Source: a virus. Taken from it: 64,000 bases of DNA. Where the stretch lies: positions 1-64,000 of IMG/VR virus record IMGVR_UViG_3300036792_000363, one strand, 5' to 3'. Below are positions 17,376 to 56,412 of this stretch, piece after piece. How positions within the stretch are numbered: the first letter of the stretch is position 1; each line of letters opens with the position of its first letter. Position numbers and translations under genes: made by a program. The notes beneath the pieces were generated by a model. It worked only from the letters and a program-made list of their open reading frames with translations, was not told where the DNA came from and made no database searches.

Positions 17376-18359
17376 CTAGAACGGCGGGGTCTCGTCGTCG
17401 TCAACCGGGACGGCAGGGGCGGGGGCGGGCTTCGCGCCCGGCCGGCTCGGGTGCTGGCCGCTGGTGCACTGGCACCCCCGGTCGGTGCACTCGCGGTGCG
17501 CCTTGGTGAGGCACTCGCCGCAGCGCGCGCCGGTGACCCACGTCATCCTGCCGTCGGGCATGGCCGGCAGCGGCAGGCCGCCGGGGGCCCTCTTCGGGCG
17601 GCGGGCGCCGACGGGGCGCGGGCTCTTCGGCCTGGCCGTCCCGGGCTGCGCGGCCTGGCGGCGCTTGTACTCGCCCTGCCGACTCGCGGCGGGCTGGCCG
17701 CCGTCCCCGCCGATCCGCCTCCGCGACAGCGGCCACAGCAGGGCGCAGCCGTGGCCGGTGAACTCGTCCTCGGCGATGTGCAGGGCCATGCCCAGCGCGC
17801 ACAGCCACCACAGGTCGGCGCGCACCGTCCAGACCGCGAACCCCGAGATGGCGCACCCGAACGCCACGGCCTCCAGGCCGCCGCGCGCGAACCGGGTGGC
17901 CTTCAGCCCGGCCGCCGCGCAGACGGCCAGCAGCACCGCCACCGCGGTGAGGGCGTGGTCGTTGGGGGCCCACAGCGTCGCCCAGGCGGTCAGCACGCTC
18001 ACCAGGGCGACGCCGAAAATCGAGTGCATGCCCTGCCGGTGGCCGCCGAACAGCGCGGAGATGACGTGCGCCAGCGTCCAGCTGACCGGCCCGGCCGCGT
18101 GCGCGAACGACGCGTCGTGGTGGTCGGCGTCGGGCAGCAGGGCCAGCGAGCCGGTCAGCATCCCGTAGGCCAGGGTCTGGCTGACGGCGTGGGCCACGTA
18201 GGGCCCGCCGTGCCCGGCCGGGAGGGTCAGCAGGCTGACCCCCACGCCGAGCGCGAGCCCGGTCGCGGCGTGAACGCTCCCGTCCATGTAGCGGGCCTCC
18301 TCCGTCTGCCGGGCGACCCGGGCGGCGCGCGGCCTGGCCGGCGCGTACGTGGCTGTCAT
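17376..18359 (-). CDS. YdjM-type membrane-bound metal-dependent hydrolase, 327 aa
   Basis: Residues about 25-220 match the YdjM/DUF457 family: GSVHAATGLALGVG, the acidic LLPDADHHDASF and the basic HRQGMHSIFGVAL motif, with five or six hydrophobic segments between. Residues 225-327 are a proline-rich linker and a Cys-rich end (CGECLTKAHRECTDRGCQC) that looks like a zinc ribbon. ATG 18359 is only 7 nt from the -10 box, so the mRNA is predicted leaderless. Role in phages is not established; it acts at the membrane. Confidence 0.75.
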   Translation of the reverse strand: MTATYAPARPRAARVARQTEEARYMDGSVHAATGLALGVGVSLLTLPAGHGGPYVAHAVSQTLAYGMLTGSLALLPDADHHDASFAHAAGPVSWTLAHVISALFGGHRQGMHSIFGVALVSVLTAWATLWAPNDHALTAVAVLLAVCAAAGLKATRFARGGLEAVAFGCAISGFAVWTVRADLWWLCALGMALHIAEDEFTGHGCALLWPLSRRRIGGDGGQPAASRQGEYKRRQAAQPGTARPKSPRPVGARRPKRAPGGLPLPAMPDGRMTWVTGARCGECLTKAHRECTDRGCQCTSGQHPSRPGAKPAPAPAVPVDDDETPPF

Positions 18360-25124: not shown

Positions 25125-25859
25125 GTGCCGCCCGTACGACGCACTGACCCGGCCCACCGCCAGCTGGCGGACTACTACAAGCAGCGGATCCTGTCAGGCG
25201 AGCTGCGCCCCGGCGACCCGATCCCGTCAGTCCGGCAGATGGCCCGCGCCTCGCAGGTCTCCCCCGCCACCGCCCAGCGCGCGATCGAGTGGCTGAGGGC
25301 GGGCCGGCTGGTGGACACCGGCCCGGCCGGCACGGTGGTCGCCCCGCTGCGGGCCGCCATCTCCCCGCAGCAGCGGCTGCGGCTGACCGGGGACCCGGAG
25401 TCGGAGTCGCAGGAGGTCACCTCCGCCGGCCTGGTCGAGGCGCCCGAGTACGTCCGGGCGATCTTCGGCCTGGCGGAGGGCGACGCGGTGCTCCGCCGCG
25501 AATGGGTGACGCTGGAGGACGGCGGGCCGTCGCGGCTGACCGTGACCTGGCACCGGGCGGACGCCTCCGGCCTGGTGCCGGAGCTGCTGGCCGAGGCCCC
25601 GCTACCCGACCCGCGGGGCGGGGCGGCGATGATCGCGGCGCGCTCGGGCTGGGACCTGGCGGTCCTTCGCGGCGGCAGCGCGTTCGAGTGCCGGGCAGCG
25701 AAGGACGACGGCCGGGAGCGGCCGCTGCTGCGCCTGGCGCGCGGGGCGTGCGTGCTGGCCGGGGTGTGGACCTGGGCCGGGCCGGACGGCGAGGTGGCCG
25801 AGTACGGCGAGTACATCGTGCCGCCCGGCCGGGTGATCGAGGCGGACATCGAGCCGTAG
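25125..25859 (+). CDS. GntR-family transcriptional regulator with UTRA domain, 244 aa
   Basis: GTG 25125 follows AGGAGA. Residues 10-75 are a GntR winged helix: LADYYKQRILSGELRPGDPI, then SVRQMARASQVSPATAQRA and a wing ending DTGPAGTVV. Residues 95-240 match the UTRA effector domain (EYVRAIFGLAEGDAVLRREWV and the following strands). GntR/UTRA proteins near tra genes in Streptomyces elements (KorSA type) repress transfer functions; here it is divergent from the tra-like operon. Ends before a strong terminator. Confidence 0.85.
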   Translation: MPPVRRTDPAHRQLADYYKQRILSGELRPGDPIPSVRQMARASQVSPATAQRAIEWLRAGRLVDTGPAGTVVAPLRAAISPQQRLRLTGDPESESQEVTSAGLVEAPEYVRAIFGLAEGDAVLRREWVTLEDGGPSRLTVTWHRADASGLVPELLAEAPLPDPRGGAAMIAARSGWDLAVLRGGSAFECRAAKDDGRERPLLRLARGACVLAGVWTWAGPDGEVAEYGEYIVPPGRVIEADIEP

Positions 25860-28148: not shown

Positions 28149-28796
28149 TCAACCGGTGACCGTGATCTCCGTGCGGAAGCACCAGGCGATGCCGGGGTCC
28201 TTCATCCCGAAGCCGCCCGGCGGCGCCTTGCGGTTCATCATCACCGAGGTGCCCTCGTCGTAGCACCGGCGCAGGACGTGGCCCGGCCGCGGCCGCCCGC
28301 CGCCGGTCGCCCAGCACCACTCGTTCCAGGGGAAGCACGCCTGGTCCTCGCTGAACGTGGCCTGCCCCTCGATGACGGTGAGCGCGCCGGTCACCCGCGG
28401 GTAGCCGGGGTCCATCGGCAGGTAGAAGCTGCGGGCCTCGTCCTCCCCCTCCGCCGCCGACAGGTGCGCCTGGTCGCGGCTGAACTCGGTCACGCCGTCG
28501 GCGCCCACCCCGAAGCAGGTCCGGCCCCGCTCCAGCGGGTACCCCTCGCCGACGATGAGCGCCGCCAGGTTGGCCAGCCCGGAGAACACCACCCCGTTGC
28601 CCTCGTCGTGCACCGTCCCGCACTCCGGCTCGCGGAACATCACCCGCATCCAGCTCCCGTTCAGCGCCCGGCCGGGGGTGCCCGCCCGCGCCAGCCACGC
28701 GCGCGCGTGCCTCGTCTGGTCGGCGCTGTACTTCTCCACCGTGCACCGGGGGTACCACCCGATGCCCTCCCTGTGACCTGCGTCCATCCCGCTCAC
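28149..28796 (-). CDS. Hypothetical protein, 215 aa
   Basis: GTG 28796 with GGAAGGGAG upstream. Contains PRCTVEKYSADQTRHARAWL and several Cys and Trp residues (FPWNEWCWATGGG). No family recognised. Its stop codon lies in a TTGACA at 28147-28152. Divergent from the flavohaemoglobin gene. Confidence 0.55.
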   Translation of the reverse strand: MSGMDAGHREGIGWYPRCTVEKYSADQTRHARAWLARAGTPGRALNGSWMRVMFREPECGTVHDEGNGVVFSGLANLAALIVGEGYPLERGRTCFGVGADGVTEFSRDQAHLSAAEGEDEARSFYLPMDPGYPRVTGALTVIEGQATFSEDQACFPWNEWCWATGGGRPRPGHVLRRCYDEGTSVMMNRKAPPGGFGMKDPGIAWCFRTEITVTG

Positions 28797-28930
28797 GCGC
28801 TGCTCCCTTCCTGCGGCGGCAATCGGACGCGGGGATGGAAAAACCGGGAAACCATGGCCGGATGCGCAAACGAGACCTAAGCTGCCGCAGGGTGCGCTTC
28901 CGCCGGGGTGGCGGCGCGAGGGAGGGGTCG

Positions 28931-30286
28931 ATGAGCACGCAGGAGAGCAGCCCGAGAGACGGCGGCCGGAGATTCGGGCTGCCGGAGAGGGCGGCCCGCA
29001 AGAAGGGCAGGCCGGCGGCGGGGCTGCCGAGGACCAGGGCGGCGAGCGCCCTGCTGGCCGACCCGCCGGTGGCCGGGCCGACCGGGCGGATCCCGCTCGG
29101 GGACCCGGAACCGGAGTCGGCCGGGCCCGGGCGGGCGGAGCCCGCCGAGATCAACCCGGCGGCCATCCGGCTGTCGCTGGAGGGGATGGAGGCCGACGCG
29201 CAGAAGTGCGCGGGCGACTTCTACGGCTACCTGTTCAACGGGTGCCCGCGCCTGCGGGAGCTGTTCCCGCCGATGATGGACGTGCAGAACGAGCGGCTGT
29301 TCGCGGCGCTGCTGAAGATCGCGTCGCTGCTGGAGACCCCGGACCAGCTGGCCCGCTACCTCGCCCAGCTGGGCGCCGACCACCGCAAGTACGGGGTGCG
29401 CCCGGAGCACTACGCGCCGGTCGGGGACGCGCTGCTGCGCACCCTGCGCCGGCACTGCCCCAACTGGAGCGCCGAGGCGGAGGCGTCGTGGGCGGCCGCC
29501 TACGCGATGGCCGCCGAGCACATGATCTTCGCCGCCGCCACGGCGCGGGGCCCCGCCACCTGGCGGGCGCAGGTGATCCGGCACGAGCAGCGCGCCCGCG
29601 GGCTGGCGGTGCTCACCCTGCAGACCGACCAGCCGCTGCCGTACCGGCCGGGGCAGTACATCACCGTGCAGCACCCGAAGTGGCCGCGGGTGTGGCGGCA
29701 GTTCTCGATCGCCAACCCGCCGCAGATGTACGGCGAGCGCAGCCTCATCGAGCTGCACGTGCGCCAGGTGCGCGGCGGCTGGGTGAGCGGCGCGCTGGTG
29801 CGCGACACGGAGCTGTTCAGCGAGGTGACCATCGGGCCGCCGGCCGGGCTGATGACCGCCGACGCGCTCGGCGAGCGCGACCTGGTGGCGGTGGCCGGCG
29901 GCACCGGCCTCGCCCCGGTGAAGGCGGTCGTGGCGGCGGTGCTGATGGCCGACGAGGCCTCCGTGGCGGCCGGCGGCGGGTACCGGCGCAACATCCACCT
30001 GTTCCACGGCGCGCAGACCCCGACCGGCCTGTACGACATGCCCGCGCTGCGCGAGCTGTCGGATGTCTACCCCTGGCTGCAGGTGGTGCCGGTGGTGGCG
30101 GACGAGAACTTCCCCGGGCTGACCGGCTGCGTCTCCGACGCGGCGCTCGACTACGCGGAGTGGGCCGGCCGGGAGGCGCTCATCGCAGGCCCGCCGGACA
30201 TGACCGCGCTGGCCGTCAAGCAGTTCCGGGACGCAGGGTTCCTGGACATGCAGGTGCACTACGACCAGCTGGAGACGCAAGGGTAG
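28931..30286 (+). CDS. Flavohaemoglobin-like NO dioxygenase/reductase, 451 aa
   Basis: ATG 28931 follows GAGGGAGGGG. Residues 1-75 are a low-complexity extension. Residues about 76-205 are a globin with the expected haem-pocket residues: Tyr98 (B10), Phe112 (CD1), Gln119 (E7), proximal His151 (F8) and Tyr161. Residues 210-310 form the FAD domain (YRPGQYITVQ, RQFS), and residues 318-445 the NAD domain (VAGGTGLAP, IAGPPDM, VHYDQLE). Flavohaemoglobins use NAD(P)H and O2 to turn NO into nitrate; the reductase part could also supply electrons to the NOS encoded 6 nt downstream. The C-terminus lacks the usual Phe-Gly-Pro end of Hmp. Plus-strand gene flanked by minus-strand phage genes. Confidence 0.85.
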   Translation: MSTQESSPRDGGRRFGLPERAARKKGRPAAGLPRTRAASALLADPPVAGPTGRIPLGDPEPESAGPGRAEPAEINPAAIRLSLEGMEADAQKCAGDFYGYLFNGCPRLRELFPPMMDVQNERLFAALLKIASLLETPDQLARYLAQLGADHRKYGVRPEHYAPVGDALLRTLRRHCPNWSAEAEASWAAAYAMAAEHMIFAAATARGPATWRAQVIRHEQRARGLAVLTLQTDQPLPYRPGQYITVQHPKWPRVWRQFSIANPPQMYGERSLIELHVRQVRGGWVSGALVRDTELFSEVTIGPPAGLMTADALGERDLVAVAGGTGLAPVKAVVAAVLMADEASVAAGGGYRRNIHLFHGAQTPTGLYDMPALRELSDVYPWLQVVPVVADENFPGLTGCVSDAALDYAEWAGREALIAGPPDMTALAVKQFRDAGFLDMQVHYDQLETQG

Positions 30287-30292
30287 GTGCTG

Positions 30293-31462
30293 ATGTTCAC
30301 CTCCAGGCGCAGGACGACGGCGGAGTCCGTCCCCCTGGAAGAAGCCGAAAGGTTCGTGCGCGAGTACCACGCCGAGAACGGGGGCGAGGAGGGCAGGCGG
30401 CTGCGCGAGGTGCGCGCGTCGATCGCGCGCACCGGCACGTACCGGCACACGACGGCGGAGCTGGCGTGGGCGGCGCGGGCCGCCTGGCGGCACAGCGCCC
30501 GGTGCACCGGGCGCTACAACTGGCGCACGCTGCGGGTGCGGGACCTGCGCGGGGTCTCCGACCCCGACCGGGTGGCGGCGGAGACGATCGAGCACCTGCG
30601 CGTCGCCACCAACGGCGGCAGGGTCCGCTCCTACATCACGGTGTTCGCGCCGGACGAGCCGGGGCTGCCGGGGCCGCGCATCCTCAACGCCCAGACGGTG
30701 CGCTACGCCGGCTACCGGCAGCCGGGCGGCGAGGTGACCGGCGACCCGGGCAACGTCGGCCTCACCGACCTGGCGCGGGGGCTGGGCTGGCGCGGGGGCG
30801 GCGGGTCGTTCGACGTCCTGCCGCTGGTGATCTCCTCGGGCGGCCGGCTGCGGCTGTTCGAGGTGCCGCGGGACGCGGTGCTGGAGGTGCCGATCACCCA
30901 CCCCGACTTCCCCTGGTTCGCGGGGCTGGGGCTGCGCTGGTACGCGGTCCCGGTGGTGACCGACATGTACCTGGAGGCGGGCGGGGTGCGCTACCCGTGC
31001 GCCCCGTTCAACGGCTGGTACCAGGCGTCCACCGAGGTGGGCGTGCGCAACTTCGGGGACGAGGCGCGCTACGGGATGCTGCCCGCGGTGGCGGCGGGGA
31101 TGCGGCTGGACACGAGCAGCGAGTCGACGCTGTGGCGCGACCGCGCGGCGGTGGAGCTGGCGGTGGCGGTCACCCACAGCTTCAAGGCGGCCGGGGTGAT
31201 GGCGACCGACCACCAGACCGAGACGCGCCGGTTCATGAAGTTCGCGGAGACCGAGCGGGCGGCGGGGCGGCCGTGGAGCGCGGACTGGGGGTGGATCGTC
31301 CCGCCAATCGGGGGCTCGACCACCCCGCCGTTCCACGCGACCTACCCGAACGAGACGCTCACCCCGGGGTTCTTCCGGCACGACCCGCCGGACACCGCGC
31401 TCGCGGCGTGCCCGTTCGAGCACGGCGGCGCCTGGCGGGGCACCGCCAGCATCGCCGGCTGA
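30293..31462 (+). CDS. nos: Bacterial-type nitric oxide synthase oxygenase, 389 aa
   Basis: Haem-ligand motif WRHSARCTGR with Cys71 and the stacking Trp65 (canonical WRNSxRCIGR, here Asn to His). The arginine site is NGWYQASTEVG with the substrate-binding Glu248. Also present are RYGMLP, the STLWRDRA and HSFKAAGV segments, and the pterin-side WSADWGWIVPP. Length matches oxygenase-only bacterial NOS (about 360-390 aa); there is no fused reductase. It should oxidise L-arginine to NO and citrulline with outside electrons. ATG 30293 is preceded by AAGGGTAGG; GTG 30287 directly after the upstream stop is an alternative. Probably one operon with the flavohaemoglobin gene. Confidence 0.92.
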   Translation: MFTSRRRTTAESVPLEEAERFVREYHAENGGEEGRRLREVRASIARTGTYRHTTAELAWAARAAWRHSARCTGRYNWRTLRVRDLRGVSDPDRVAAETIEHLRVATNGGRVRSYITVFAPDEPGLPGPRILNAQTVRYAGYRQPGGEVTGDPGNVGLTDLARGLGWRGGGGSFDVLPLVISSGGRLRLFEVPRDAVLEVPITHPDFPWFAGLGLRWYAVPVVTDMYLEAGGVRYPCAPFNGWYQASTEVGVRNFGDEARYGMLPAVAAGMRLDTSSESTLWRDRAAVELAVAVTHSFKAAGVMATDHQTETRRFMKFAETERAAGRPWSADWGWIVPPIGGSTTPPFHATYPNETLTPGFFRHDPPDTALAACPFEHGGAWRGTASIAG

Positions 31463-31470
31463 GGGCTAGG

Positions 31471-31800
31471 TCAGGCGATCTTCCCGGCGCACAGCGGCGC
31501 GAACGCGCTGGCGAAGTTGAAGTTGGAGGGCTGGTTGGCGGTGCCGAAGAACACCCCCGACACGGTGCCCAGGTAGTCGACGACCTGCAGCGCGTACTCC
31601 GCGTCGGACTGGCTCCCCGGGTTCTCGGTGTTCGCCTCGCTGGCGAACCCCAGCTGCTGCAGGTAGGCCAGCCCGTTGCCCTGCCCGTTGATCCACCCGT
31701 TGAGGGTGACCGCCTGCTGGTTGAGGTCCCGCAGCCCCACCGTCAGGTCGGTGAGGATCTGGCTGACGGTAGCGGCGCTCGCCTGGTTCCCTACGCTCAT
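31471..31800 (-). CDS. Hypothetical protein after the tail fibre, 109 aa
   Basis: ATG 31800 to TGA 31471. Helical with QILTDLTVGLRDLNQQAVTL and a C-terminal SNFNFASAFAPLCAGKIA. Last gene of the tail module, convergent with the NOS gene (8 nt apart). Could be a fibre chaperone or small virion protein; not recognised. Confidence 0.6.
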   Translation of the reverse strand: MSVGNQASAATVSQILTDLTVGLRDLNQQAVTLNGWINGQGNGLAYLQQLGFASEANTENPGSQSDAEYALQVVDYLGTVSGVFFGTANQPSNFNFASAFAPLCAGKIA

Positions 31801-31817: not shown

Positions 31818-34800
31818 CTAGGGCCCGAGCCGGGTGAACTTGCTGCCGTACCCGGTGATGGTCTCGCCGCTCGCGGTCGCGCCCCACTCCGCCGCGACGG
31901 CCACCGTGTTGGCGGCGGTGGTGTTGAACGCGATGGTCGAGTACGTGCTGCTGAGGTAGCCGTTGTTGTTGTTCGTCCCGGACGAGCGCGTGCCGGCATT
32001 GCCGACCCCGCCGTCCAGGAACACGGAGGCCGCGCCCGACCCCCCGGTGGAGACGACCTGCAGCTTGGCGCGGATGGTGCCGGCGAAGTTGGACGCGCTC
32101 GGGAAGAACGCCGGCCCGATGGTGATGGCCGCGCCCTGCTGGGAGCTGTTGAGCCAGAGCGTCCAGGTGAGCGTCTGGTTCTCGAACAGGCCGAAGAACG
32201 GGACCTCCACCTCGTACATGGTGGTGAACTGCGCGGTGTTCGCGGGGATCGACCAGGCCTTGGTGATGGCCGTGTACCCGGTGGAGGTGGCGGTGTAGGT
32301 GGCGGCGTCCACCTGGACCAGCGGGACGTAGCCGAAGGCCCCCGAGCCCGTCATCACCTCGACGCTGGTCCCCGTCGCGGACCCGGCCGGGGCCGGGAAG
32401 ATCTTGGCCCCCGCCGTCGGGGCGGCCGGGGCGGTGGCCGGGACGGCGAGGGTGAGCACGCCCTTCGCGTCGGTGCCCAGGTTCGGCCCGGCGGGGATCG
32501 AGTTGCCGTACTGGTCGATGAACGCCGGGCCGGTGTTGACGAAGAACCCGACGCTGGGCGTGCCCGTGATGTAGCTGAGCCGGACCTGCCCGTTCGCGCC
32601 CGCCGCGCCCGGGCTGATGTTGACCCCCGGGCGGGACCCGCCGCCTCCGCCGCCTCCGCCGGGGGTGAACCCGGCCTGCCCGGGCGACGCCCCGGAGGCG
32701 TGGGACGCGCCGCCCGCGCCGCCCGCGCCGCCGCCCGCCACGGCGGGCCCGCCCGCGCCGCCGTTGGTGCCGCTGGTGCCCGCGGGCGTGTCCCCGCCGT
32801 TCCCGAAGCCTCCGCTGCCCCCCGAGCCGCCGCCTCCGCCGCCGCCCGCGCCGCCGCCGTTCCCGGCGCCGAAGCCGCCCGTGTTCGCGATCGAGTTGCC
32901 GCTGGCCGCGCCGCCGTTGCCCCCGACGCCCGAGCCCGCGTTCCCGGGGGACCCGGGGTTGCCCGTCACGGTGGCGCTGGAGCCGGTGAGCGTGGACGCG
33001 CCGCTCGCCGCGCCGCCGTTCGACCCGACCGCGCCGCCGCTGCCGCCCGACCCGACCGAGTAGGAGACGGTGCCGCCGCTCGGCACCGCCAGGACCGGCT
33101 CGCAGCCGTAGCCGCCGCCGCCGCCCGCGCTGCCGCCGAACCCGGACGAGTTGCCGCCTCCGCCGCCTCCGCCCGGGCCCCAGGACTCGCCCTTGGCGAC
33201 GGTGATCCCGGCCGGGATGGGGATGGTGCCGCTGCCGCTGGTCTTGGTGACGATGACCTGGCTGCCCGCGCCCGAGTACAGGATCATCGCGTACGGGGAC
33301 AGCGCCATCAGCGGGGTGAACACCAGCGTCTCGCCGTCGGGGGTGCTGGTGGTGCCGAACGTCACCACCGCGGTGTCGGACCCGGTGTCGTTCTCGCTCT
33401 CCAGCAGCATCGCCGCGCCGGTGGTGGAGGCCAGCGGGCTGGAGACGACCAGCGACTGCTTGGTGGTGCCCCCGCTGCCCACGTCCATCGCGCCGATGAG
33501 GCCGGGGATGACCTCGTTGGAGTCGCCGCTGTTGTACTGGGTCATCGCGGTCAGGACGCCCGCGATGGCCGTGGTCAGGTTGAACGCCTGGTCGGCGTTC
33601 GGCTGCAGCACCAGGTTGCTGGAGCCCGGCGCCCCGATCATCAGCCCGGCCGGGTAGCTGTTGCCCGCGCCGCCGGAGACGGCCGAGTCGTTGCCCGCGG
33701 TCGCCGACCACGACCCGATCAGGTTGCCGACGGCGGGCGGGCCGGCGTAGACGAACACCTCGCCGGACGTGCCGTAGGCGACGAACTGCGCGCCCTCCAC
33801 CAGGGTGCCGTTCACCACCCCGGCCAGGATGATCCCGACCGCGATCTGGTTGGCGGTGATCGACAGGGCCTCGATGAGCTGGCCCTGCACCTGCCCGGCG
33901 GCCACCGCCCCGGTCACGTAGACGGTGACGCCCGAGGACGGCAGCTCGATGACCTGGTACCCGCTGGTGGTCCCGGAGGGGGCGTCCGACACCATCGCCA
34001 GCGGCGTCCAGATCGCCGGCGGGACGCTGAACGTCTGCAGCCCGCCCGCCCAGTTGAACCCGATCTGCACGTTGACCGCGGACCCCGACGGGTTGTAGAC
34101 CCAGGCGGTCATCGAGTAGGGCTGGCCCGCCGTCACCGGGAACGGGGCGGGCGACCCGTTCATGTACCCGTTGGCCGCGGTGGACGCCAGCTGCGCGCAC
34201 CACGGCGGGGCCCCCGGCGCCCCCGCGGGGACGGACTGGGTGGCGGTGAGGGTGGCGTTGGCGGCGGCCCACCCGGTGAGCGACCCGCCGTTGAAGAACG
34301 GGTTGGGGTTGAGGGCCCAGGACCCGGCGCTGTTGCCGAGCACGCTGGCCGGCAGCTGCCCGGTGACGATGCCGCCGGGCACCCCGGTGGCGGTGGCGGC
34401 CGCGCCGGGGGTGGGGGCGGAGGCGTTGCCCGAGGTGTTGACCGCGGTCAGCTTGGCCCAGTAGGTGACGCCCGCCGTCAGGCCGTTGACCGCCACGGTG
34501 CCCGCCGTCTGCAGCGTGCCCATCAGGGTGGACGGGCCCGGGGTGAACGACGAGGAGGTGCCCAGGTAGACCTGGACGTACTGGAAGTCGGACAGCGGGG
34601 TCGCGCCGCCCCCCACCTTCCCGTCCCAGGTGATGGTGACGCCCGCGATGACGCCGACGGCGGCCGGGGTGTCGGGAACGCCGGGGGCGGGGCCGTTGGA
34701 GTCCACGACGGTGACGGTGCCGTCGCCCTGCAGCCCGACCGTGGTCCTGGTGGCCCCGTTGACGACGATGACGGTGGTGTCGGGGGCCTGGGTGTTGGAG

Positions 34801-37800
34801 GCGGTGGGGCTGGACACCGACGACGGCAGCGTGCTCCCGGTCACCGGGTCGGTGGTGCCGGCCAGCTGGTAGTTCCCGGTGGTCGGGTTGTAGACCAGCG
34901 GCGAGTTGGCGAGGGTGCTCCCGGCCGACCCGGTGGCGACGTCGGCGAGCCGGGCGAGGGTGGCGGCCGGGTCGAAGTAGGTGGGGACCTGCCCGGTGCC
35001 GTACTTGCTCGGGGCCACCGGGCTGGTGCCGAGCACGTTGACGAACTGGCCGCCCAGCCGGCTGGAGATGTAGGTCAGCTGCTCCTGCAGCCACTGGATG
35101 TAGCTGATGAGCGTCAGCTCGTGCGCCTCGTTGCCGCCGGAGTCCACCGACACGGCGATGCCCATCACCCGCACGTCGTCGACCGCCGAGAAGTCGGGCC
35201 GCTCCAGGCCCAGCCAGTCGCCGACGCTGAAGTTCTCGAAGACCGTCCGGCCCGGCAGGTTGGGCGCCAGCTGCAGGGTCCAGCTCAGGATCTCGGTCTC
35301 GTTCTGCGCCAGCGCCGACGCGGTGGCGTAGGCCATCGAGGTCGGGTCCACCTGGACCGCGGTCTGGTACCAGGCCTCCCGCTGCCCCCACTGCGCGATG
35401 TAGCCCGGGCTGGAGGCGGAGATCTCGTGCCCGTCGGCGTTCTCCCCGCCGATGAGGGTGGTGATCTGGTTGCGGGCGCGGACCCGGGTCTTGGCGGCGC
35501 AGTCGTAGCCCTCGCGCAGGATCAGGTACGAGGACCGGTCGGTGCCGAGCGCCACCTGCCCCGGCGCCGGCTGGCCGACCCGCAGCTGGAACCCGGGCAG
35601 CATGATGTAGTCGGCGTTCACCACCGACGCGGCGGACTGCAGGAACGAGTACAGGTCGGTGCCGTTGGTGGCCTGCACGTTCTGGGCGTCGCTCCAGGCC
35701 CGGCCGAAGCTGTCGGCGGTCGCGCTGGTGTCGGTGTGCATGAACGGGATGGTGCCGCGCGCCTTGGCGGCCTCGAACTGGTCGAGCCACACGCCCATCA
35801 GCGGGACGTTCAGGTAGATCCGGCCCTGGTAGCTGGGGGTGGTGACGTTGGAGTTCAGGTTGGTGAGCTGGGCCGACTGCCCGGTGCCGGAGTAGGAGGC
35901 GGTGAAGTAGAGCGAGACGTCGGTCGCGTCCCAGTTGTGGACGATCGTCCACTGCTGGGTCCAGGTCTGGCCGTCGGGGCTGGTCCAGAAGTAGAACGTG
36001 CCCGACCCGCCGGGGGTGCCGCCCTGCTCGGTGATCTGCCAGTACGCGTGGCTGGTCGGGTTATAGGCGGGCAGCACCTTGGTGTAGGTGCCGCTCGGCC
36101 CCCGGAACTGGCAGTAGAAGGCCGACGCCGACAGCCCGAACAGCGCGTAGTAGGCGGTGTTGAGGTTGGACTCGATGTAGAACTGGGTCAGCTGCGAGCC
36201 GTTCAGCCCGGCCCCGTACGGGGCCGGGGTGGAGGAGTCGGCCGCGTTGGCGCTCACCCCGACCGGGGTCACCTGGGCGGAGATCAGGGTGTTGGTCGCG
36301 TCGTAGGGCGACGCCCCCAGGAACGTGGTCCCCGGGGTGGCCACCAGGGTGACCGACCCCGACGGGTACAGGGTGGACAGCGCGTAGCCGGTCCCGCCCG
36401 GGTAGTTGTAGATGACCCCGGTCGGGGTGATGTAGACGTCGGCGGCCGGGGTGGCGGTGGTCCAGATGTTGGTGTCGAGGACCCCGTTGCCGTTGACGTC
36501 GGTCTCGTCGAAGCTGTCGAGGATGCCGTCGAGCTTCAGGATGATGTCGGGGAAGCCCTGCGGGGCGATCATCGCCCACTTGAGGGCGGCGATGGTGCCG
36601 GGCCCGGTGATGGTGGCGGTGCGCTGCTCGGACGGGTCCACCAGCTGCTCGGTGACGGTCTCGCCGAAGAACTCGAACCGGCGCACCCCGTCCTGCCAGA
36701 ACTGCCACAGGCACTCCTCGTCCAGCAGGGTGGACGAGGGCAGCCCGCCGGGGAGGGTGACGTGCTGCCACCACGGGTCGTCCTGCGACAGCACCACCGT
36801 GCCGGAGCCGATGTCGTCCAGCTGCATCGCGAACTGGAAGCTGACCAGCATCGACGACGGGATGACGGCCAGCAGCGTCACGTAGTCGGCGGCGGAGACG
36901 ACCTGGATCTCCCACCCGTTGCCCACCGCCGACGGGGTGATCGCGCCGACCCCGGCCGGGCCGCCCGGGTAGCCCGCCGGGTTGACGGCGGCGGGCATGC
37001 CCGTCTGCACGGTGGGGCCGGACCCCAGGCGCGGCCCGCCCAGCCGCCCGCCGACGGGCGGGTTCGCCCCGACCACGCCGGGCAGCGTGCCGATGAAGGT
37101 GGACGGCTCGGGCGGCAGGATGACCGCGCCGCCGGCGGACGTCCCCAGCGCGGCCATGGCCAGGTGGCCGGTGCCGGTCACGTTGCTGCCGTGCTCGGAG
37201 CCGGCGCCGGACATCCCGAGCGGGGCCATGGCCAGGGACCCGGCGGAGGTGACCCCGCCGCCCGTCTGGGACCCGGCGCCCGACACGCCCAGCGGGGCCA
37301 TGGCCAGGTGGCCGGCGGAGGCGATGTTCTCGCCCGCGGCGCCCGACACGCCCAGCGGGGCCATGGCCAGGGACCCGGCGGAGGTGACGGCGGGCGGGGC
37401 GCCGATGACGAGGATCGCCGAGCTTGGCACGTCCCAGGTGGCGCCGGTGGTGAGCGTGCACGACACCGCCGAGCCCGCCGTGGCCGCCACGTTGTAGGCG
37501 GCGAGCGTGTCGGTGAAGGACAGCAGGGTGTAGCCGCTGGACGCGCCCGTCCACTCGCCGTTCAGGAGGCTCGTGTTGACGCAGACCAGGACCGGGCTGC
37601 CGGACGGCGCGTTGACCGACGGCGTGGTGATGCTGCTGACCCCGCTGGCGAGGGTGCCGTTGGAGGCCGCGCCGAGCACCCGGGCCCCGGCCGGCAGGCC
37701 GCTGAACTCCTGGACCTGGACCTCGGCGAAGTCGCCGCTGCCCGACAGCACGACAGTGACGGAGGTGACCGCGTTCGCCACGAGGCAGCAGGCGATGGCG

Positions 37801-38051
37801 GTCATCCCGTACTGGGTGACCGAGGCGTCGTAGGAGCCGTTAACCGGCGGGTTCTGGTTGGCGGTGGCGGTCGAGTAATTCCACGTGTTGCCGGCGGTGT
37901 CGCTGATGGAGACGATGTGGAGCGCGGTGTTGCTGGTCACCCACTGCGTCGCGTACAGGACCAGGCAGTGCCCGGCAGTGGTGGTGATCGGGACGGTGAA
38001 CGTCGTGCCGCCGCCGGTCTGCGCCGTCCCGTCCTGGACGTGCGTGGTCAC
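31818..38051 (-). CDS. Very large tail fibre/minor tail protein, 2077 aa
   Basis: GTG 38051 with GGGAGGTGAG upstream. Residues 1-215 are a beta-rich N-terminus. Residues about 215-305 contain four degenerate repeats with the core LAMAPLGVSGAG. Residues 350-1100 are a tail-protein-like part. A fibronectin-III-like domain lies at about 1120-1220 (VTITWDGKVGGG, GLTAGVTYWAKL). A glycine-rich, collagen-like stretch covers about 1625-1815, and a beta-rich C-terminus ends the protein. It sits after the distal tail genes and most likely forms the host-contacting fibre or baseplate spike. Confidence 0.75.
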   Translation of the reverse strand: MTTHVQDGTAQTGGGTTFTVPITTTAGHCLVLYATQWVTSNTALHIVSISDTAGNTWNYSTATANQNPPVNGSYDASVTQYGMTAIACCLVANAVTSVTVVLSGSGDFAEVQVQEFSGLPAGARVLGAASNGTLASGVSSITTPSVNAPSGSPVLVCVNTSLLNGEWTGASSGYTLLSFTDTLAAYNVAATAGSAVSCTLTTGATWDVPSSAILVIGAPPAVTSAGSLAMAPLGVSGAAGENIASAGHLAMAPLGVSGAGSQTGGGVTSAGSLAMAPLGMSGAGSEHGSNVTGTGHLAMAALGTSAGGAVILPPEPSTFIGTLPGVVGANPPVGGRLGGPRLGSGPTVQTGMPAAVNPAGYPGGPAGVGAITPSAVGNGWEIQVVSAADYVTLLAVIPSSMLVSFQFAMQLDDIGSGTVVLSQDDPWWQHVTLPGGLPSSTLLDEECLWQFWQDGVRRFEFFGETVTEQLVDPSEQRTATITGPGTIAALKWAMIAPQGFPDIILKLDGILDSFDETDVNGNGVLDTNIWTTATPAADVYITPTGVIYNYPGGTGYALSTLYPSGSVTLVATPGTTFLGASPYDATNTLISAQVTPVGVSANAADSSTPAPYGAGLNGSQLTQFYIESNLNTAYYALFGLSASAFYCQFRGPSGTYTKVLPAYNPTSHAYWQITEQGGTPGGSGTFYFWTSPDGQTWTQQWTIVHNWDATDVSLYFTASYSGTGQSAQLTNLNSNVTTPSYQGRIYLNVPLMGVWLDQFEAAKARGTIPFMHTDTSATADSFGRAWSDAQNVQATNGTDLYSFLQSAASVVNADYIMLPGFQLRVGQPAPGQVALGTDRSSYLILREGYDCAAKTRVRARNQITTLIGGENADGHEISASSPGYIAQWGQREAWYQTAVQVDPTSMAYATASALAQNETEILSWTLQLAPNLPGRTVFENFSVGDWLGLERPDFSAVDDVRVMGIAVSVDSGGNEAHELTLISYIQWLQEQLTYISSRLGGQFVNVLGTSPVAPSKYGTGQVPTYFDPAATLARLADVATGSAGSTLANSPLVYNPTTGNYQLAGTTDPVTGSTLPSSVSSPTASNTQAPDTTVIVVNGATRTTVGLQGDGTVTVVDSNGPAPGVPDTPAAVGVIAGVTITWDGKVGGGATPLSDFQYVQVYLGTSSSFTPGPSTLMGTLQTAGTVAVNGLTAGVTYWAKLTAVNTSGNASAPTPGAAATATGVPGGIVTGQLPASVLGNSAGSWALNPNPFFNGGSLTGWAAANATLTATQSVPAGAPGAPPWCAQLASTAANGYMNGSPAPFPVTAGQPYSMTAWVYNPSGSAVNVQIGFNWAGGLQTFSVPPAIWTPLAMVSDAPSGTTSGYQVIELPSSGVTVYVTGAVAAGQVQGQLIEALSITANQIAVGIILAGVVNGTLVEGAQFVAYGTSGEVFVYAGPPAVGNLIGSWSATAGNDSAVSGGAGNSYPAGLMIGAPGSSNLVLQPNADQAFNLTTAIAGVLTAMTQYNSGDSNEVIPGLIGAMDVGSGGTTKQSLVVSSPLASTTGAAMLLESENDTGSDTAVVTFGTTSTPDGETLVFTPLMALSPYAMILYSGAGSQVIVTKTSGSGTIPIPAGITVAKGESWGPGGGGGGGNSSGFGGSAGGGGGYGCEPVLAVPSGGTVSYSVGSGGSGGAVGSNGGAASGASTLTGSSATVTGNPGSPGNAGSGVGGNGGAASGNSIANTGGFGAGNGGGAGGGGGGGSGGSGGFGNGGDTPAGTSGTNGGAGGPAVAGGGAGGAGGASHASGASPGQAGFTPGGGGGGGGSRPGVNISPGAAGANGQVRLSYITGTPSVGFFVNTGPAFIDQYGNSIPAGPNLGTDAKGVLTLAVPATAPAAPTAGAKIFPAPAGSATGTSVEVMTGSGAFGYVPLVQVDAATYTATSTGYTAITKAWSIPANTAQFTTMYEVEVPFFGLFENQTLTWTLWLNSSQQGAAITIGPAFFPSASNFAGTIRAKLQVVSTGGSGAASVFLDGGVGNAGTRSSGTNNNNGYLSSTYSTIAFNTTAANTVAVAAEWGATASGETITGYGSKFTRLGP
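37141..37386 (-). repeat. Four tandem repeats in the tail fibre gene
   Basis: Four units of about 69-75 nt, each encoding a variant of (S/H)LAMAPLG(V/M)SGAG and each containing GGCCATGGCC on both strands. The fourth unit is diverged (LAMAALGTSAGG). Confidence 0.75.
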
Positions 38052-38089
38052 GCGCTCACCTCCCTACCAGCCGGGGACACTGGCCGGGG

Positions 38090-38500
38090 TCAGGTGCCGG
38101 TCTGCGACTGCGTGATGGTGAACGCCGAGCAGGAGACGGTGGCCCCGCTGACGATCGACAGCGTGGACAGGTTCAGGTCGCCGCCGCTGGGGCTCGCGAC
38201 GGTGCCGGTGGCCACGACGGTGCCGCCGGACTCCTCCACCACGAAGTAGCCCGCGGTCCCGGTGTTGCCGGCCGTGCCGCTGGCGATGGCGTTGGCGGTC
38301 GCGGTGACCGTGCCGGAGGCGGCGGTGGAGGACCCGAACGCGGTGCCGCCGAAGGTGAGGGTGGCCAGCAGCGTGCCGGTCACCGCGCCGTCGAGCGCGG
38401 GCTGGGTGCCGGTGTAGAGCTTGAGGGTGCCGCCGTTCAGCAGCGCGGCCACGGCGTTGACCGACGCCTCCACCGTGACGTCGTACCAGTAGCTGCTCAC
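38090..38500 (-). CDS. Small virion-type protein, 136 aa
   Basis: ATG 38500. Ala/Gly/Thr/Ser-rich beta protein with LNGGTLKLYTGTQPALDG, a pattern common in small phage proteins next to fibre genes. Likely a minor structural protein; exact role unknown. Confidence 0.6.
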   Translation of the reverse strand: MSSYWYDVTVEASVNAVAALLNGGTLKLYTGTQPALDGAVTGTLLATLTFGGTAFGSSTAASGTVTATANAIASGTAGNTGTAGYFVVEESGGTVVATGTVASPSGGDLNLSTLSIVSGATVSCSAFTITQSQTGT

Positions 38501-41568: not shown

Positions 41569-44500
41569 AAGGCGATCCCCCTCCCGGCGAGGAACGCGAG
41601 GCGGTTGGAGCTTCTCGTGATCGAGTCGCTCGGCTTCTCGGGCCGCGGGTTGTTAATCGTTAGCTGGCCGACCTCCAGGCCGACGGTGCGCCCGGCCGCC
41701 TCCGACAGCGAGCGCGGCATGGTGCCGGTCGCCTGCGAGGAGAGCTGGCTCTGCATGGTGGCCGACAGGCCCGGCAGGAACAGGTTGGGCACCACCCCGC
41801 CGGCCGCCATGCCGGCCCCGAACATCGACGACACGGCCGCCGGGACCCCGCCCCCGCCGGCGAGCCCGAACCCGTAGTCCCCGCCGGGGGACCCGCCGCC
41901 CGGCCCGCCGACGATGAGGCTGTTCAGGTCCACCGTGACGGGGGCGTTGCCCGGGTTGCGCACCGTGATGCCGGGGATCAGGTACTCGCCCCAGATCCCC
42001 TGCCAGGCCTTGGCGGCCCCGGCGACGTCGCCCTCCAGCATCTGCAGGTGGTCGTAGGTGTCGCCCCACGCCTCCGGCCGGTACTCCTTGCCCACGGAGG
42101 CGTTGCGCAGCGCCGCCGCCCACCCCGTCAGGCTCCGCTCGGCGGCGGTCCAGTCCCCGGAGGTGAGCGCGGCCGGGTCGTTCACGTCGGCGAAGATCGG
42201 GCTGAGCGCGGCGTTGGCGTTCTTCTCCGCGAGGGCGGCGCCGGCCCGCTGGGCCATCCACGTGTTCCACTGGGCCTGGGTGGGGGCCTTCCCCCCGGCC
42301 GGCCGGGGCATCTGGTAGAGGGCCTGCCAGTTGCCGAACGCCTGCTGCCAAGTGGCCTTCATTCCCCTGGTGCTCTTGCCCGCCACGTCCTTCTCCAGCT
42401 GCCCGACGTCCGCCCGGGCGTTGGCCCAGAACTCCGGGTGGTACTGCCGCCCCAGGTTCATCGCGCCGAGCGCGCTGTCCCAGGAGGCCAGGTCGCGGCC
42501 GGCCAGCTGCCACTCGGCCGTCGTCGGGGCGCGGGCGCCCAGCAGCGCGTCGACCGCCTTGTTGGCGTTCTTCTCGGCCAGGGCCGCGGCCGTGCGCTCG
42601 GCGTCGAACTGCAGCCACTGCGCGTTCGTCGGGCCGTACCCGGCCGCCGGGCGCTTGTTGAGCTGGTAGAGGTCCTGCCAGGCGATGAACGCCTGCTGCC
42701 ACTGCGGGTGGATCTGCCCCGCGTACCTCGCCCAGGCGGTCACGTCCGCCTTGGGGATGACGGAGCTGGTGGGCACCGGCGGGACGGCCAGCGCGCTGCC
42801 GACCTGCTTCCACCCCTCGGTCAGCAGCGCCTTGTCGGGGGTGTGCCACGACGTGCCCGCCGCGGTCTGCGCGATGGCGGCGGCGTACAGCGCGGCCTGC
42901 TCCGGCTGGGACTTCCACCGGGCGGCGCTGGAGGAGTTGACCGACGTGCGGTAGTACGGCTCCATCAGCCGGGCGGCCTTGGTCGGGTTGTAGGCGTCGG
43001 CGGCGGTGAACCCCTTGTGCTTGCGCAGGTTGGTCAGCCACGCGCCGTACTCGTCGGCCGACGGGTCCTTCGCGGTCGCGTCCCAGCGGGACAGCAGCCA
43101 CGACGCCAGCGCCATCGACTCCCGCTGCTCCAGGTTGCCGGTGACCGACTTCAGCGCCGACACCACCGGGCCGCCGCCCGCGTACCACCCGTCCGCCAGT
43201 TCGTGCGCCCAGGCCCCGACCGGCGTCCCGTAGCGGTCCTTGATGTAGTTGATCATGGCGGTGATCTGGCCGACGGCCGACGCGCTGCTGCCGCCGTACT
43301 GCGCGTACTCCGACGGCCCGTTGATGAACTGCGCCAGCCCGTACGCGCCCGACGTCGGGTTCCTGGCGGACAGGTTGTAGCCGGCCTCGCGCATCTCGAC
43401 GTTGTTCAGCGCCGACCAGTTCGCGCCGGTCCACCCGACGGAGGCGGCCATCGACTGCATCAGCTTCTGGATGGTCGCGCCGGCGCCGGTCGGGTGCAGG
43501 GAGGAGCCCGCCGCCTCGGCCTTGGAGGTCTGGCCGTTGATGTAGTTCTCGACCCCGTTGTGGATCTGCTGCACCCACGACGCGGCCATGTCCCCGGGGG
43601 TGCCCAGGTGCTCCAGCCCGGCCTCCGCGGGGGCCCCGCTGACCGACCACATGGCGTCGAAGACGGCCTTCTCGCCGTACCGGGCGACGTCGCGGGCGGC
43701 CCCCGCCACCCCGCTCCAGGCCCCCTTCGCGAGGGACCCCACGTCGCCCGCGACGTCGCCCAGCCAGTTCCCGATGTTGTTGATGATCCCGCCGCCCGCG
43801 TACCTCCCGGTGGCCGGGCGGCGCTGGCTGGCCGCGTTCCCGCGCGACCCCGAGCCCAGCCAGGCGTCGGCGTTGTTGAGGTGGTCCATGAAGTCCGGCC
43901 CGTAGGCGGCCTGCAGCGCCATCCGGGCGGGCTTGCGGAGCATGTACTCCCCGCCCATGGCGATGATGTGGGTGCCGTCCTCGTCGCCGGTGCCGGGCAC
44001 CGAGCCCGACGCCATCGGCACCCCGCCGCCGCGCGCCAGCTTGGGGATCGGGCTGATGTGGACGCCCACCACCCCGGTGACGGAGTTGATGAACCCGATG
44101 ACGGTGTTCATCCCGCCGATCGCCCTGTCGATGCCGCCCTTCAGCCCGCCCCAGATGGCGTTGGGCATGGTGGTGGTGAACCAGCGCTCCATCGGCTGCA
44201 CCAGCCCCCGGCTGAAGTCGGTCCAGCCCTGGCTCCAGAACTTGTTCCAGTCCCGCCCGAGGCCGTCGAACCAGTTCGGCATCTGGCTGTTGAAGAACTT
44301 GCCGACGTCCGAGACCAGGTAGTGGCCGAATCCCTGGCTGACGTTCACCCAGACCCCGGTCAGGGCCGTGCCGGCGCTGATGAACCAGCCGGTGACGGTG
44401 TTGTTCCAGAACTGGTCCCACGGCGCGCGGATGTTGCCGTCCCACCACCGGTTGAACGCCTGCCATCCGGCGATGAGGGCGTTGTTGGAGGCGTTGTAGG

Positions 44501-47500
44501 CCTCGGGGATCTGCTTGTTGAAGAAGTTGCTGAGCGGGTGGTTGACGTCGTTGAAGAACCCGGTGTAGACGGCGTTCCAGCCTACGTTCGCGGCGTGCGG
44601 GAGGGTGTCGGTGAACCAGCGGGCGAGCTTGGCGGTGTTGGCGTCGCTCTGCGCCATGTAGCCGGGCGGCGGGTTGTAGGCCTGGCCGTAGTCCCTCTGC
44701 ATCTCGGCCAGCCGGGACTGCAGCGGGGTCAGGTTGAGCGTCGGGGTGATGGGCTTGCCGAGCTGCCCCTCCACGTCCCTCAGCCGGTTCTGCAGGGGGG
44801 TCAGGTTGGGCAGCGTGTTGGTCGCCTTGGTCGTGTCGGCCGCCCACAGCTGCAGCGCCTGGGCCCGCTTGACCCCCATCTGGGTGAGGGTCGCGACGAA
44901 CTCGTTCTTCGCCTGGTCGAGCCCCTGCGGGGTGGTGCCGTAGACCGCGATGAGCGCGTTGGCCACCGAGGTCGACAGGCTCACCTCCTGCGCGGTGGGC
45001 CCGTTCGCGACCGCCTTCCGGTTGGTGAGGATGTACTGGTAGAGCCCGGCGACCGCCTTGGTGATCTGGGGCATGGCGACCAGCCCGTTGGCGATGGCCT
45101 GGGTGAGGTTGGTGCCGACGGCGGCGGCCAGGTTGAGCACGTCGGTGCTGAGGTTGGAGCTGCCGGTCTGCAGGGTCCCGACCTGCTTGTTCAGGTCCTT
45201 CAGGGTCCCGGTGACGTCGTGGTTGCCGCCCGACCACTTCTCCAGGGCGTCGTAGGTGGCCTTGCCGGTGTAGCCCATGGACTGGGCGAGCGCGTAGGTG
45301 CCCTGCACCGACTCCTCGCCGGCCCCGCCCTGGGCCAGCATGATCGACACCAGGTCGCGCCCGGAGGCGGCGAGCGCGGCGTTGGTCTTGGCGGTGTTGC
45401 CGGCAGCGGCGTTCTGCTCCAGCAGGTTGTTGTAGAGGGTCTGCCCGGACGACAGCTGCGACTCCCACGACTGGCGCAGGGTGAAGCTGGCGGCGTTGAC
45501 CCCGCCCATCGACGCGCCGGCGGCCTTCAGGTTGGTGGCCACCGTGTAGATGCCGGACCCGAAGGCGTCCAGGGCCGTCTGCCCCTGGGTGGTGAGGGTC
45601 AGGAACGCGGTGAAGTCGGCGGTCAGGGTGGCGATCGAACTGGACTGCAGCTCGCTGGAGAGGGTGACCGCGTTGATCGCCGCGCCCAGTTGGTTCATCC
45701 CGTTCTTCAGCTGGTAGCCGGCCACCCCCATGTTCAGCCAGCCGGTCACCAGGTCGTCGACCTTGGTCTGCTGCGTCGCCAGGTTGTCGGTGACCTTCAC
45801 CCCGGCCAGGTCCATCAGGGCGAACGACTCCTGGGCGGTGGTGCCGTACTTCTTGGTGGCGTCGGCGGCCTCCGCCAGGGTGGTGGTCCAGTCCTTCTGC
45901 TCGGCGGTCTGCTCGCGCAGCACCAGGGCGGTCGACCCCGGCTGCTGGTTGGTCCCGGTGATCGCCTCCCACAGGTCCTTGTAGACGCTCAGGTGCAGCC
46001 CGAACCCGGACGCGTCGCGGAACAGGTCCGACCAGCCCTGCGCCATGTTGCCGACGAAGTTGCGCTGGTTGGTCGACGCCGCGGTCAGCCACTGGCCGAT
46101 GGAGGCGAGGTTCGTCTGGATCCGGGCGAACCCCTGGCTGGCGTTGTCGGACGCGAGCGCCTGCTGCAGCCCGGCGACGTAGGACTTGGCCTGGCTGCTG
46201 GCCTGCGCGGCGGAGTAGATCGCGTAGCCCACCGCGGCGATGGCGGCGGCTATCGCCAGGATGCCCCCGGCCGGGACGGTCGCGAAGGCCGTCTTCATGC
46301 TCGCCCCGAGCGCGTCGAACGCCCCGCCGACCAGCGGCAGATTGCCCAGCAGGGTGACCAGCCACACGGACACGAACTCAAGCTGGGTGACCACCCACAC
46401 CAGCGCGCTCGCCAGCAGGCCGCCGTAGTGCACCACCGCGAAGAACGCGATGCCCACGGCGGTGGCGTACGGCCCGACGATCGCCAGCGCCTTGGCCACC
46501 ACCGACAGGGCGTAGGCGATGCCCTCGAACAGCAGCTCCGAGACGTGGGTCAGCTCCCCCGCGCGCAGCAGCTCGCCGAAGAGCTGCGCCAGCGACCCGC
46601 CGATGGACCCGAGGATCCGCAGGTCGTTGACGGCGGTGTTGATCAGCTGGCTGAGGCCGCTGCCGCGGTTGGCGAGGGCGGACTGGATCTTGACCGCCAG
46701 GTCCTCCACCCACGTCCCGGTGGTCTTGACGATCGACTGCAGCAGCCCGGTGTTGCGGGTGACGATGTTGATGGCGGCCCCGTAGAGGGTCACCGCCTCG
46801 GGGGCCATGGCGGTCTGCAGCGACCGGAGCGAGACCGGCAGCGGCTTCATGGTCGCGTTGAGGGTCCCCATCTGGTCGGACAGGAAGCCGATGTGCTGGG
46901 TGGCCTGGCTGATGGGGCCGTTGCCGGTGGACAGGGCGTCCAGCGCCGTGTGCAGGCCCAGGAACCGGTTGTAGACGTCCTTGGCGGCCGGCTCGATGGC
47001 GACCGCGAACGCGCCGAGGGCGACCCCGGCGGCGACGACGGCGGGCACCAGGACGATGAAGAAGTCGAGCAGCGTGTGCAGCGCCAGCGCCCACACGCTG
47101 ATGTGGCCTAGCAGCGGGACCCCGGAGAACACCCCGGCGAACAGGGTGAGCTGCCGGCCCCAGAACCCCCACAGGCCGCCTGCCGTGCGCGCGGCGTTCC
47201 CGGCGGTCCCGGCGGCCGCCCCGGCGGCCTTGGAGGTGGCGGCGGAGCGCACCGCCTCGTCGTCGGTGCCCTTCATGGCCGCTTCGAGCGAGCGCCAGAA
47301 CTCGGCGTCGTCCCCGCCGTCCGCCGCGCCGGGGGCGGTCGGCGTCGGCGGCTGCCCCGCGCCCCCGCCCGCGCCTGCTGTGCTGGCGGCCTCCTCGAAC
47401 CGGCGGGCGGCCGCGTTGGCGGCCCCGTAGGCGGCGGTCAGGCTGTCGGCCTCGGCGGCGAGCCTGATCATGTCCCGCAGCGCGTCGTCGCTGCTGGCGT

Positions 47501-56145: not shown

Positions 56146-56412
56146 CTAGCCGTCAGTAAGTGTCGTCACCAGGTTCCCGGCAAGGTCGAACCGGTGCAGC
56201 ACCCTGTTCACGCGGATGCCCCGCTTCCTCAGCTGGTACCTGCAGTCATCGCACGGCAGCTCGATCAGGTTGTCGGGCTGGACGAACGACGGCGGCTCCC
56301 CCGCCATCTGCAGCTTGAACAGCAGCCTGCCGGGGCGGCAGTGCCCGTCCGGCAGCTGGTACCCCACCGGGCACCGCACCTCGATCTCGCGCGCCTCCAC
56401 CGCCGTGGTCAC
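56146..56412 (-). CDS. Small zinc-finger-like protein, 88 aa
   Basis: GTG 56412 overlaps the glycosyltransferase stop (GTGA). CPVGYQLPDGHC and LPCDDC give four likely zinc ligands. No family recognised. Confidence 0.55.
   Translation of the reverse strand: MTTAVEAREIEVRCPVGYQLPDGHCRPGRLLFKLQMAGEPPSFVQPDNLIELPCDDCRYQLRKRGIRVNRVLHRFDLAGNLVTTLTDG

Follow-up and report, generated by a model that had tools for sequence, protein, structure and literature searches.

In four phages, the genes for an intact nitric oxide synthase (NOS) oxygenase and for a flavohaemoglobin-like protein (FHb) lie in the same order with almost no spacing between them; all four NOS belong to one clade and all four FHb to another, and the pair occupies different genomic positions in phages of different types. 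An initial annotation of one of these sequences had claimed an operon of NOS and flavohaemoglobin genes within a phage genome, a claim that held, the head, portal and terminase genes being on the same record. The interpretation towards which we lean, by a modest margin, is that of a mobile two-gene NO cassette in which NOS would produce NO and FHb would oxidise it to nitrate; this mechanism is inferred, there being no activity or expression data.

The phage and the cassette locus

The window, i.e., the whole stretch of 64,000 nucleotides that was analysed, corresponds to positions 1 to 64,000 of IMG/VR record IMGVR_UViG_3300036792_000363, whose full length is 124,773 bp. The features of the locus, in window coordinates, are the following:

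28149..28796, minus strand: left-flank phage gene, 215 aa, function unassigned (layout; no Pfam match)
28797..28930, plus strand: intergenic region before the cassette (gene layout; manual motif scan)
28931..30286, plus strand: flavohaemoglobin-like gene (FHb), 451 aa (Pfam domains; PDB profile match; four-protein phage family)
30287, plus strand: alternative GTG start of NOS, directly after the FHb stop
30293..31462, plus strand: nitric oxide synthase oxygenase gene (NOS), 389 aa, from the ATG start (PF02898; PDB; conserved residues)
30503..30505, plus strand: codon of the haem-ligand Cys71 of NOS (invariant alignment column)
31022..31036, plus strand: NOS codons 244-248 (QASTE), with an extra residue before the catalytic Glu248 (alignment: in four phage NOS, not in 69 bacterial NOS)
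31471..31800, minus strand: small convergent phage gene to the right of the cassette, function unassigned (layout; no Pfam match)
31818..38051, minus strand: gene for a long putative tail protein, 2077 aa, flanking the cassette (layout; no Pfam match)

The contig is a genuine tailed phage. The record encodes a major head protein (8.9e-25), a head protease, a portal (3.6e-29), a terminase, a tail assembly chaperone and a putative tape-measure protein of 2702 aa, together with a clamp loader, a DNA polymerase (3.4e-78), a DnaB-like helicase and another DNA helicase; an array of 33 tRNAs is located on the minus strand between the portal and terminase genes (record positions 76689-82776). The closest isolate, Microbacterium phage Magritte, is distant (major capsid 48%, terminase 45%); neither NOS nor FHb is listed in its annotation over positions 1-100000 of 133,228, and its record was matched by neither protein in tblastn searches. 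None of the IMG/VR contigs considered here is closed, and the completeness of the window phage is not established by its ends. Other genes observed in the window include a glycosyltransferase gene inside the structural module (56409-57629), conserved in Magritte (46%) and in a 35.8-kb relative described below (58%), and, in the early region, those of a protein with a PAPS-reductase domain (7670-8635) and of a YdjM-like inner membrane protein (17376-18359).

As the initial annotation had stated, the pair lies on the plus strand amid minus-strand phage genes; the gene layout indicates that FHb and NOS stand alone in this orientation, the tail genes extending rightward from 31471 and other genes leftward from 28796 down. 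The claim of a full flavohaemoglobin-like gene 6 nt upstream of NOS also held, provided that the ATG start is used: 6 nt separate this ATG from the FHb stop codon (TAG, 30284-30286). Since the left neighbour is divergent, the region 28797..28930 must hold the promoter of the cassette. A scan of the upstream region for a sigma-70 consensus promoter was empty, and a manual motif scan of 28797..28930 yielded a weak -10-like TAAGCT at 28878; TA[AG]GCT is found upstream of three cassettes, a coincidence that could be due to chance. Along 189 aa, the 2077-aa putative tail protein is 39% identical to one of the proteins encoded by the 165-kb myovirus described below. The sole other well-scoring plus-strand gene near the cassette encodes a GntR-family regulator (25125-25859), a possible regulator. 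Two long plus-strand open frames opposite the tail genes (32700-38249 and 42048-47111; 1849 and 1687 aa) were rejected as genes, being an effect of the 72% G+C content.

The NOS protein matches PF02898 (NO_synthase) over 351 residues (7e-134; 446.8 bits against a cut-off of 22.7), and the match is full-length, covering positions 6-359 of the 362 of the profile. Its nearest solved relative is Geobacillus NOS (2flq, E 1.5e-108), mammalian NOS being also among the best matches. Residues C71, W65 and E248 and the pterin-side Trp pair W332 and W334 (numbered from the ATG at 30293) are present and invariant in the NOS alignments. The profile match and the alignments uphold the earlier claim of a complete oxygenase with Cys71, Trp65, Glu248 and a pterin-side Trp; inactivating substitutions at Cys71 or Glu248, which would have refuted it, are absent, both residues being intact. 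A distinctive trait is a one-residue insertion in the active site before the catalytic Glu, present in 4/4 NOS of the phage clade and in 0/69 of the bacterial NOS compared; the phage motif is GWY[QM]-A-STEVGVR (GWYQASTEV in the window), and the canonical substrate-helix spacing GWYxxTEI is not met by any of the four. This insertion marks a subfamily and the off-canonical spacing does not exclude membership of NO_synthase; the formation of NO and citrulline from L-arginine is inferred from sequence alone. At the position of the NO-release gate the window NOS has a Val, which we take to be the equivalent of Val346 of iNOS, a residue discussed in PMC6104048, and the other three phage NOS have an Ile in the alignment. 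The AlphaFold models were poor (pLDDT 65 for NOS, low near the insertion, and 67 for FHb) and were left out of the evidence.

The FHb protein consists of an N-terminal tail followed by a globin domain (Globin, 3.8e-13), an FAD-binding domain (FAD_binding_6, 4.5e-6) and an NAD-binding domain (NAD_binding_1, 3e-11), and these three domains are found by Pfam on one chain in 4/4 phage FHb. A PDB profile search matched the flavohaemoglobins 3ozu/1cqx at E ~1e-22, the top match being 5ogx, the reductase of a P450 system; the alignment to FHP (3ozu, 1cqx) extends across both the globin and the reductase parts. Tyr(B10), Gln(E7) and His(F8), helix positions assigned by this alignment, are invariant in the four phage proteins (FY-Y98, Q119 and H151), and this Tyr, Gln and His set is what NO dioxygenation would call for. 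Like E. coli Hmp (1gvh) and Ralstonia FHP (1cqx/3ozu), phage FHb combines globin, FAD and NAD domains and aligns Tyr(B10), Gln(E7), His(F8) and Tyr(G5); unlike them, it has an FAD motif RxFS, so that the RxYS criterion for a flavohaemoglobin is not met, carries, in the case of the window protein, an extended N-terminal tail and belongs to a divergent actinobacterial subfamily. No obvious C-terminal CFGP motif was found, nor was there any Pfam match in FHb to an FMN or iron-sulphur domain.

Recurrence among phages and bacterial relatives

Relatives were located by a scan with FHb and subsequently by NOS alignment scans of viral contigs; a single-sequence NOS scan of the same kind of contigs gave no match. 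The order FHb-then-NOS recurs on three further IMG/VR phage contigs. The first, IMGVR_UViG_3300041409_000348 (103.6 kb), found by the FHb scan, encodes an FHb 61% identical to that of the window, followed after about 40 nt by NOS; its terminase, portal, tape measure, endolysin and integrase genes identify it as a temperate siphovirus. The other two were found by the NOS alignment scan and have FHb directly upstream of NOS with an ATGA overlap: IMGVR_UViG_3300050821_018141 (35.8 kb; NOS 68% identical) is kin of the window phage, the identities being 67-69% for the major head protein and 61% for the terminase, and IMGVR_UViG_3300031718_000001 (165 kb; NOS 66% identical) is, by its tail sheath, baseplate wedge, portal and terminase genes, a myovirus.

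All-against-all protein comparisons set the cassette apart from the remainder of these genomes. When siphovirus and myovirus are compared, the NOS are 65% and the FHb 55% identical, the only other matches being two short pieces of 31-37% identity, and between window phage and myovirus NOS and FHb are by far the highest-scoring matches. The site differs even between the two kin phages, the cassette lying after the tail genes in the window and beside an array of 24 tRNAs in IMGVR_UViG_3300050821_018141; in the myovirus it is inside an array of 38 tRNAs. From position and phylogeny it is inferred that the cassette moves horizontally among phages of mostly actinobacterial hosts. The proposal that the pair has the position and orientation of a moron held in part: it fits the window, and elsewhere the cassette is in or beside tRNA arrays and co-directional with its neighbours. 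Two further observations that would have spoken against the initial annotation were not made. A chimeric contig is countered by the presence of the pair on three other phage contigs, and homologous pairs, far from never being found beside phage genes, adjoin them. The domain profile searches and the check for phage structural genes that it had proposed were carried out, and the NOS pairs lie on contigs with structural genes.

A 134-kb contig, IMGVR_UViG_3300027857_000012 (42% G+C over the part examined), represents a fifth phage and encodes a terminase, a head protease, a tape measure and a DNA polymerase along with a NOS that falls outside the phage NOS clade, lacks the insertion and has the ordinary motif. 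About 14 bp downstream of this NOS lies the gene of a stand-alone globin-domain protein (Globin, 2.5e-10) in which no reductase domain was detected. This NOS represents an independent acquisition, and a NOS paired with a globin is thus seen at least twice among phages, in one case with no reductase domain detected. With five hallmark-bearing contigs, the criterion for a phage auxiliary cassette, namely presence on phage genomes and recurrence in different phages, is met.

In phylogenetic analyses, the four phage NOS form a single clade (support 100/99) against 36 bacterial NOS, on a long stem branch, and the four phage FHb do likewise (100/98) against 32 bacterial FHb. The nearest relatives of both proteins are actinobacterial, phage FHb being ~50% identical to the nearest bacterial members of its subfamily. 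The bacterial NOS L101, from genome G987, is sister to the phage NOS clade in one tree (92/93) and unresolved in a larger one. In this genome (L101/L142) NOS and FHb are neighbours between ftsY-like and ffh-like core genes (L142:7972-10910); the strands show them to be convergent, and their reading as an operon was rejected. The sister placement, taken together with this proximity, indicates that the cassette probably stems from an actinobacterial lineage in which NOS and FHb were already adjacent. A later reordering of the two genes after capture is a mere guess.

In bacteria NOS was found in 8/397 genomes sampled across the phylum and in 130/299 and 77/295 genomes of two actinobacterial orders. 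In the first order the FHb subfamily tracks NOS, being present in 127 of 129 NOS-positive vs 96 of 170 NOS-negative genomes and, at E <= 1e-131, the strictest useful cut, in 114/129 vs 12/170; these counts are uncorrected for relatedness of the genomes, and G556, which has only a weak NOS fragment, was counted as NOS-negative. Actinobacterial NOS (e.g., L006 and L086, 57 and 62% identical) share with phage NOS the PF02898 domain and intact Cys, Glu and Trp residues but, unlike the latter, are chromosomal, lack the insertion before the Glu and rarely adjoin FHb. Indeed, few adjacent cases were found: coordinates indicate convergent pairs in G987, G998 and G830, the strands being verified for G987, and in G212 NOS is followed by a more distant FHb. 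The neighbour of NOS in an Actinomycetes MAG (L006) was considered as an FHb and rejected, not being one. Beside this NOS lies a gene for a DDAH-like (dimethylarginine hydrolase) protein (L006:3480-4517), a possible NOS regulator or arginine-analogue enzyme. At two further loci (L143:8750-10705 and L144:8208-10984) an actinobacterial NOS has close by a co-oriented gene that is enoyl-CoA-hydratase-like and similar at both loci, which may point to a conserved bacterial neighbourhood.

Proposed function and alternative explanations

NOS requires haem, reduced pterin or folate, O2 and electrons, all of which a host can supply; bacterial NOS lacks a reductase domain and normally receives electrons from FMN proteins. 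In the proposed mechanism, phage NOS, with host haem and host tetrahydrofolate or pterin, would convert host L-arginine to citrulline and NO; the globin haem of FHb would bind the NO and, with electrons from NAD(P)H passing through the FAD domain, turn it into nitrate. NO would be kept low and arginine nitrogen would end as nitrate/nitrite. As to the benefit for the infected cell, one may guess at support of respiration or against oxidative stress, or at the blunting of an NO- or redox-dependent host response; the advantages suggested in the initial annotation (protection from oxidative stress or antibiotics, signalling) likewise remain possibilities only.

Cellular precedents exist. In SyNOS of Synechococcus PCC 7335, a globin beside NOS has been proposed to convert NO to nitrate (PMC6104048), and the cassette, which likewise combines NOS oxygenase, globin and flavin/NAD reductase, would be a split version of this fusion. 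SyNOS is, however, a single cellular fusion protein whose diflavin reductase is of the mammalian type, whereas the cassette consists of two phage proteins with an FAD-only reductase of flavohaemoglobin type; the SyNOS-type criterion (globin, oxygenase and diflavin reductase on one chain) is not met and the likeness is functional at most. In S. aureus, Hmp has been proposed to turn NOS-made NO into nitrate, so that NOS and a flavohaemoglobin would cooperate in one cell as proposed for the cassette (PMC5539425); that pair is chromosomal and described as cellular physiology, whereas the cassette is phage-borne.

The most serious alternative is that FHb acts chiefly as electron donor to NOS, its globin serving as regulator or safety valve, in which case the cassette would be a self-sufficient source that raises NO. 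This remains possible: FHb has FAD and NAD domains and its closest solved relative is a P450-system reductase, the two genes are tightly coupled in four phages, and the FHb subfamily is co-distributed with NOS. The RxFS motif, the missing obvious CFGP and the best match to 5ogx also leave room for an FHb that is mainly a reductase. The preferred mechanism is further limited in that no dedicated NOS reductase is proven and that the co-occurrence is uncorrected for genome relatedness. Against the reductase reading, FHb has no FMN or iron-sulphur domain detectable by Pfam, while NOS normally uses FMN proteins, and in the fifth phage NOS is paired with a globin in which no reductase domain was detected, an observation that leaves the globin as the common element and favours NO removal as the functional link. 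The initial annotation had pointed out that bacterial NOS needs a separate reductase and that an FAD/NAD reductase with a globin is encoded with it; whether FHb fills this role is undecided, that of an NO dioxygenase acting alongside NOS being more likely than that of its reductase, which is unproven. The insertion could, conceivably, alter substrate or product, and an explanation built on this premise holds that the insertion before Glu248 (WY[QM]ASTEVGVR) and a DHQ motif have changed the pocket, giving another product or a nitration as in thaxtomin-type biosynthesis. The occurrence of the insertion in all four phage NOS and 0/69 bacterial ones and the long stem branch speak for it; it is nevertheless unlikely, the surrounding catalytic residues being all kept and the fifth-phage NOS, with its ordinary motif, being globin-paired nonetheless.

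Two explanations deny the cassette any role. An assembly chimera or host contamination, i.e., a phage contig to which a piece of bacterial DNA has been joined, might be suspected given that the contigs are metagenomic and none is closed, that NOS is common in some actinobacterial orders and that, of two database records labelled as phage that hold NOS, the one inspected proved to be bacterial chromosome (see below). It is all but excluded by the recurrence of the pair on four phage contigs that were assembled separately, where it forms a monophyletic set with no counterpart found in bacteria, by the continuous phage gene sets around it and by its location inside a phage tRNA array in the myovirus. 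That the cassette is a passenger, captured from a host and persisting by chance although the phage gains nothing from it, would accord with the likely actinobacterial origin and with the sister position (92/93) of the FHb-adjacent L101 NOS; it is very unlikely, however, since at 54-68% identity the frames are still open and the catalytic residues intact, and since different phages, with the cassette at different positions, have retained the two genes as a pair. Starting again from the NO-to-nitrate cassette, a bolder reading, for and against which the arguments seem to us evenly balanced, is that NO synthesis has been domesticated by phages: a NOS lineage specific to them, its active site remodelled, would travel among unrelated phages in company with an FHb of its own, NOS-globin pairing would have arisen in them at least twice, and controlled conversion of NO to nitrate would be a selected trait of infection or lysogeny.

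Viral NOS in the literature and in sequence records

Like phage auxiliary metabolic genes and morons, the cassette consists of host-like metabolic genes placed between phage modules, as a transcription unit of its own in the window; it differs from them in that no phage-encoded NOS gene was found described in the papers searched. To this extent the earlier remark that no described phage NO system was known holds, with the proviso that most subscription papers and preprints were outside the search and a prior description is possible. The nearest hint is a mention in PMC4164917, with reference to Cassman 2012, that reads of an oxycline virome were assigned to components of "nitric oxide synthase". 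NO synthesis by NOS has so far been regarded as part of the physiology of cells and was not known to be carried by viruses; with a mobile phage cassette, whose making and removal of NO are inferred, viral metabolic genes would gain a new class. The cassette would also offer a natural NOS/flavohaemoglobin pair for the long-standing question of how electrons are supplied to bacterial NOS while NO poisoning is avoided, and its NOS an active-site variant to study. It is possible that viruses affect NO-dependent processes of soil actinobacteria, namely stress, respiration and development, and the cassette could reshape the handling of stress, nitrogen or defence in infected soil bacteria.

Two INPHARED records labelled Staphylococcus phage, OR845001.1 and OR850403.1, hold NOS. 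The former was rejected as a phage NOS, being mislabelled S. aureus chromosome in which NOS lies beside prephenate-dehydratase-like and NAD-synthetase-like genes, among others; the latter, of 1.5 kb, is probably S. aureus chromosome as well.
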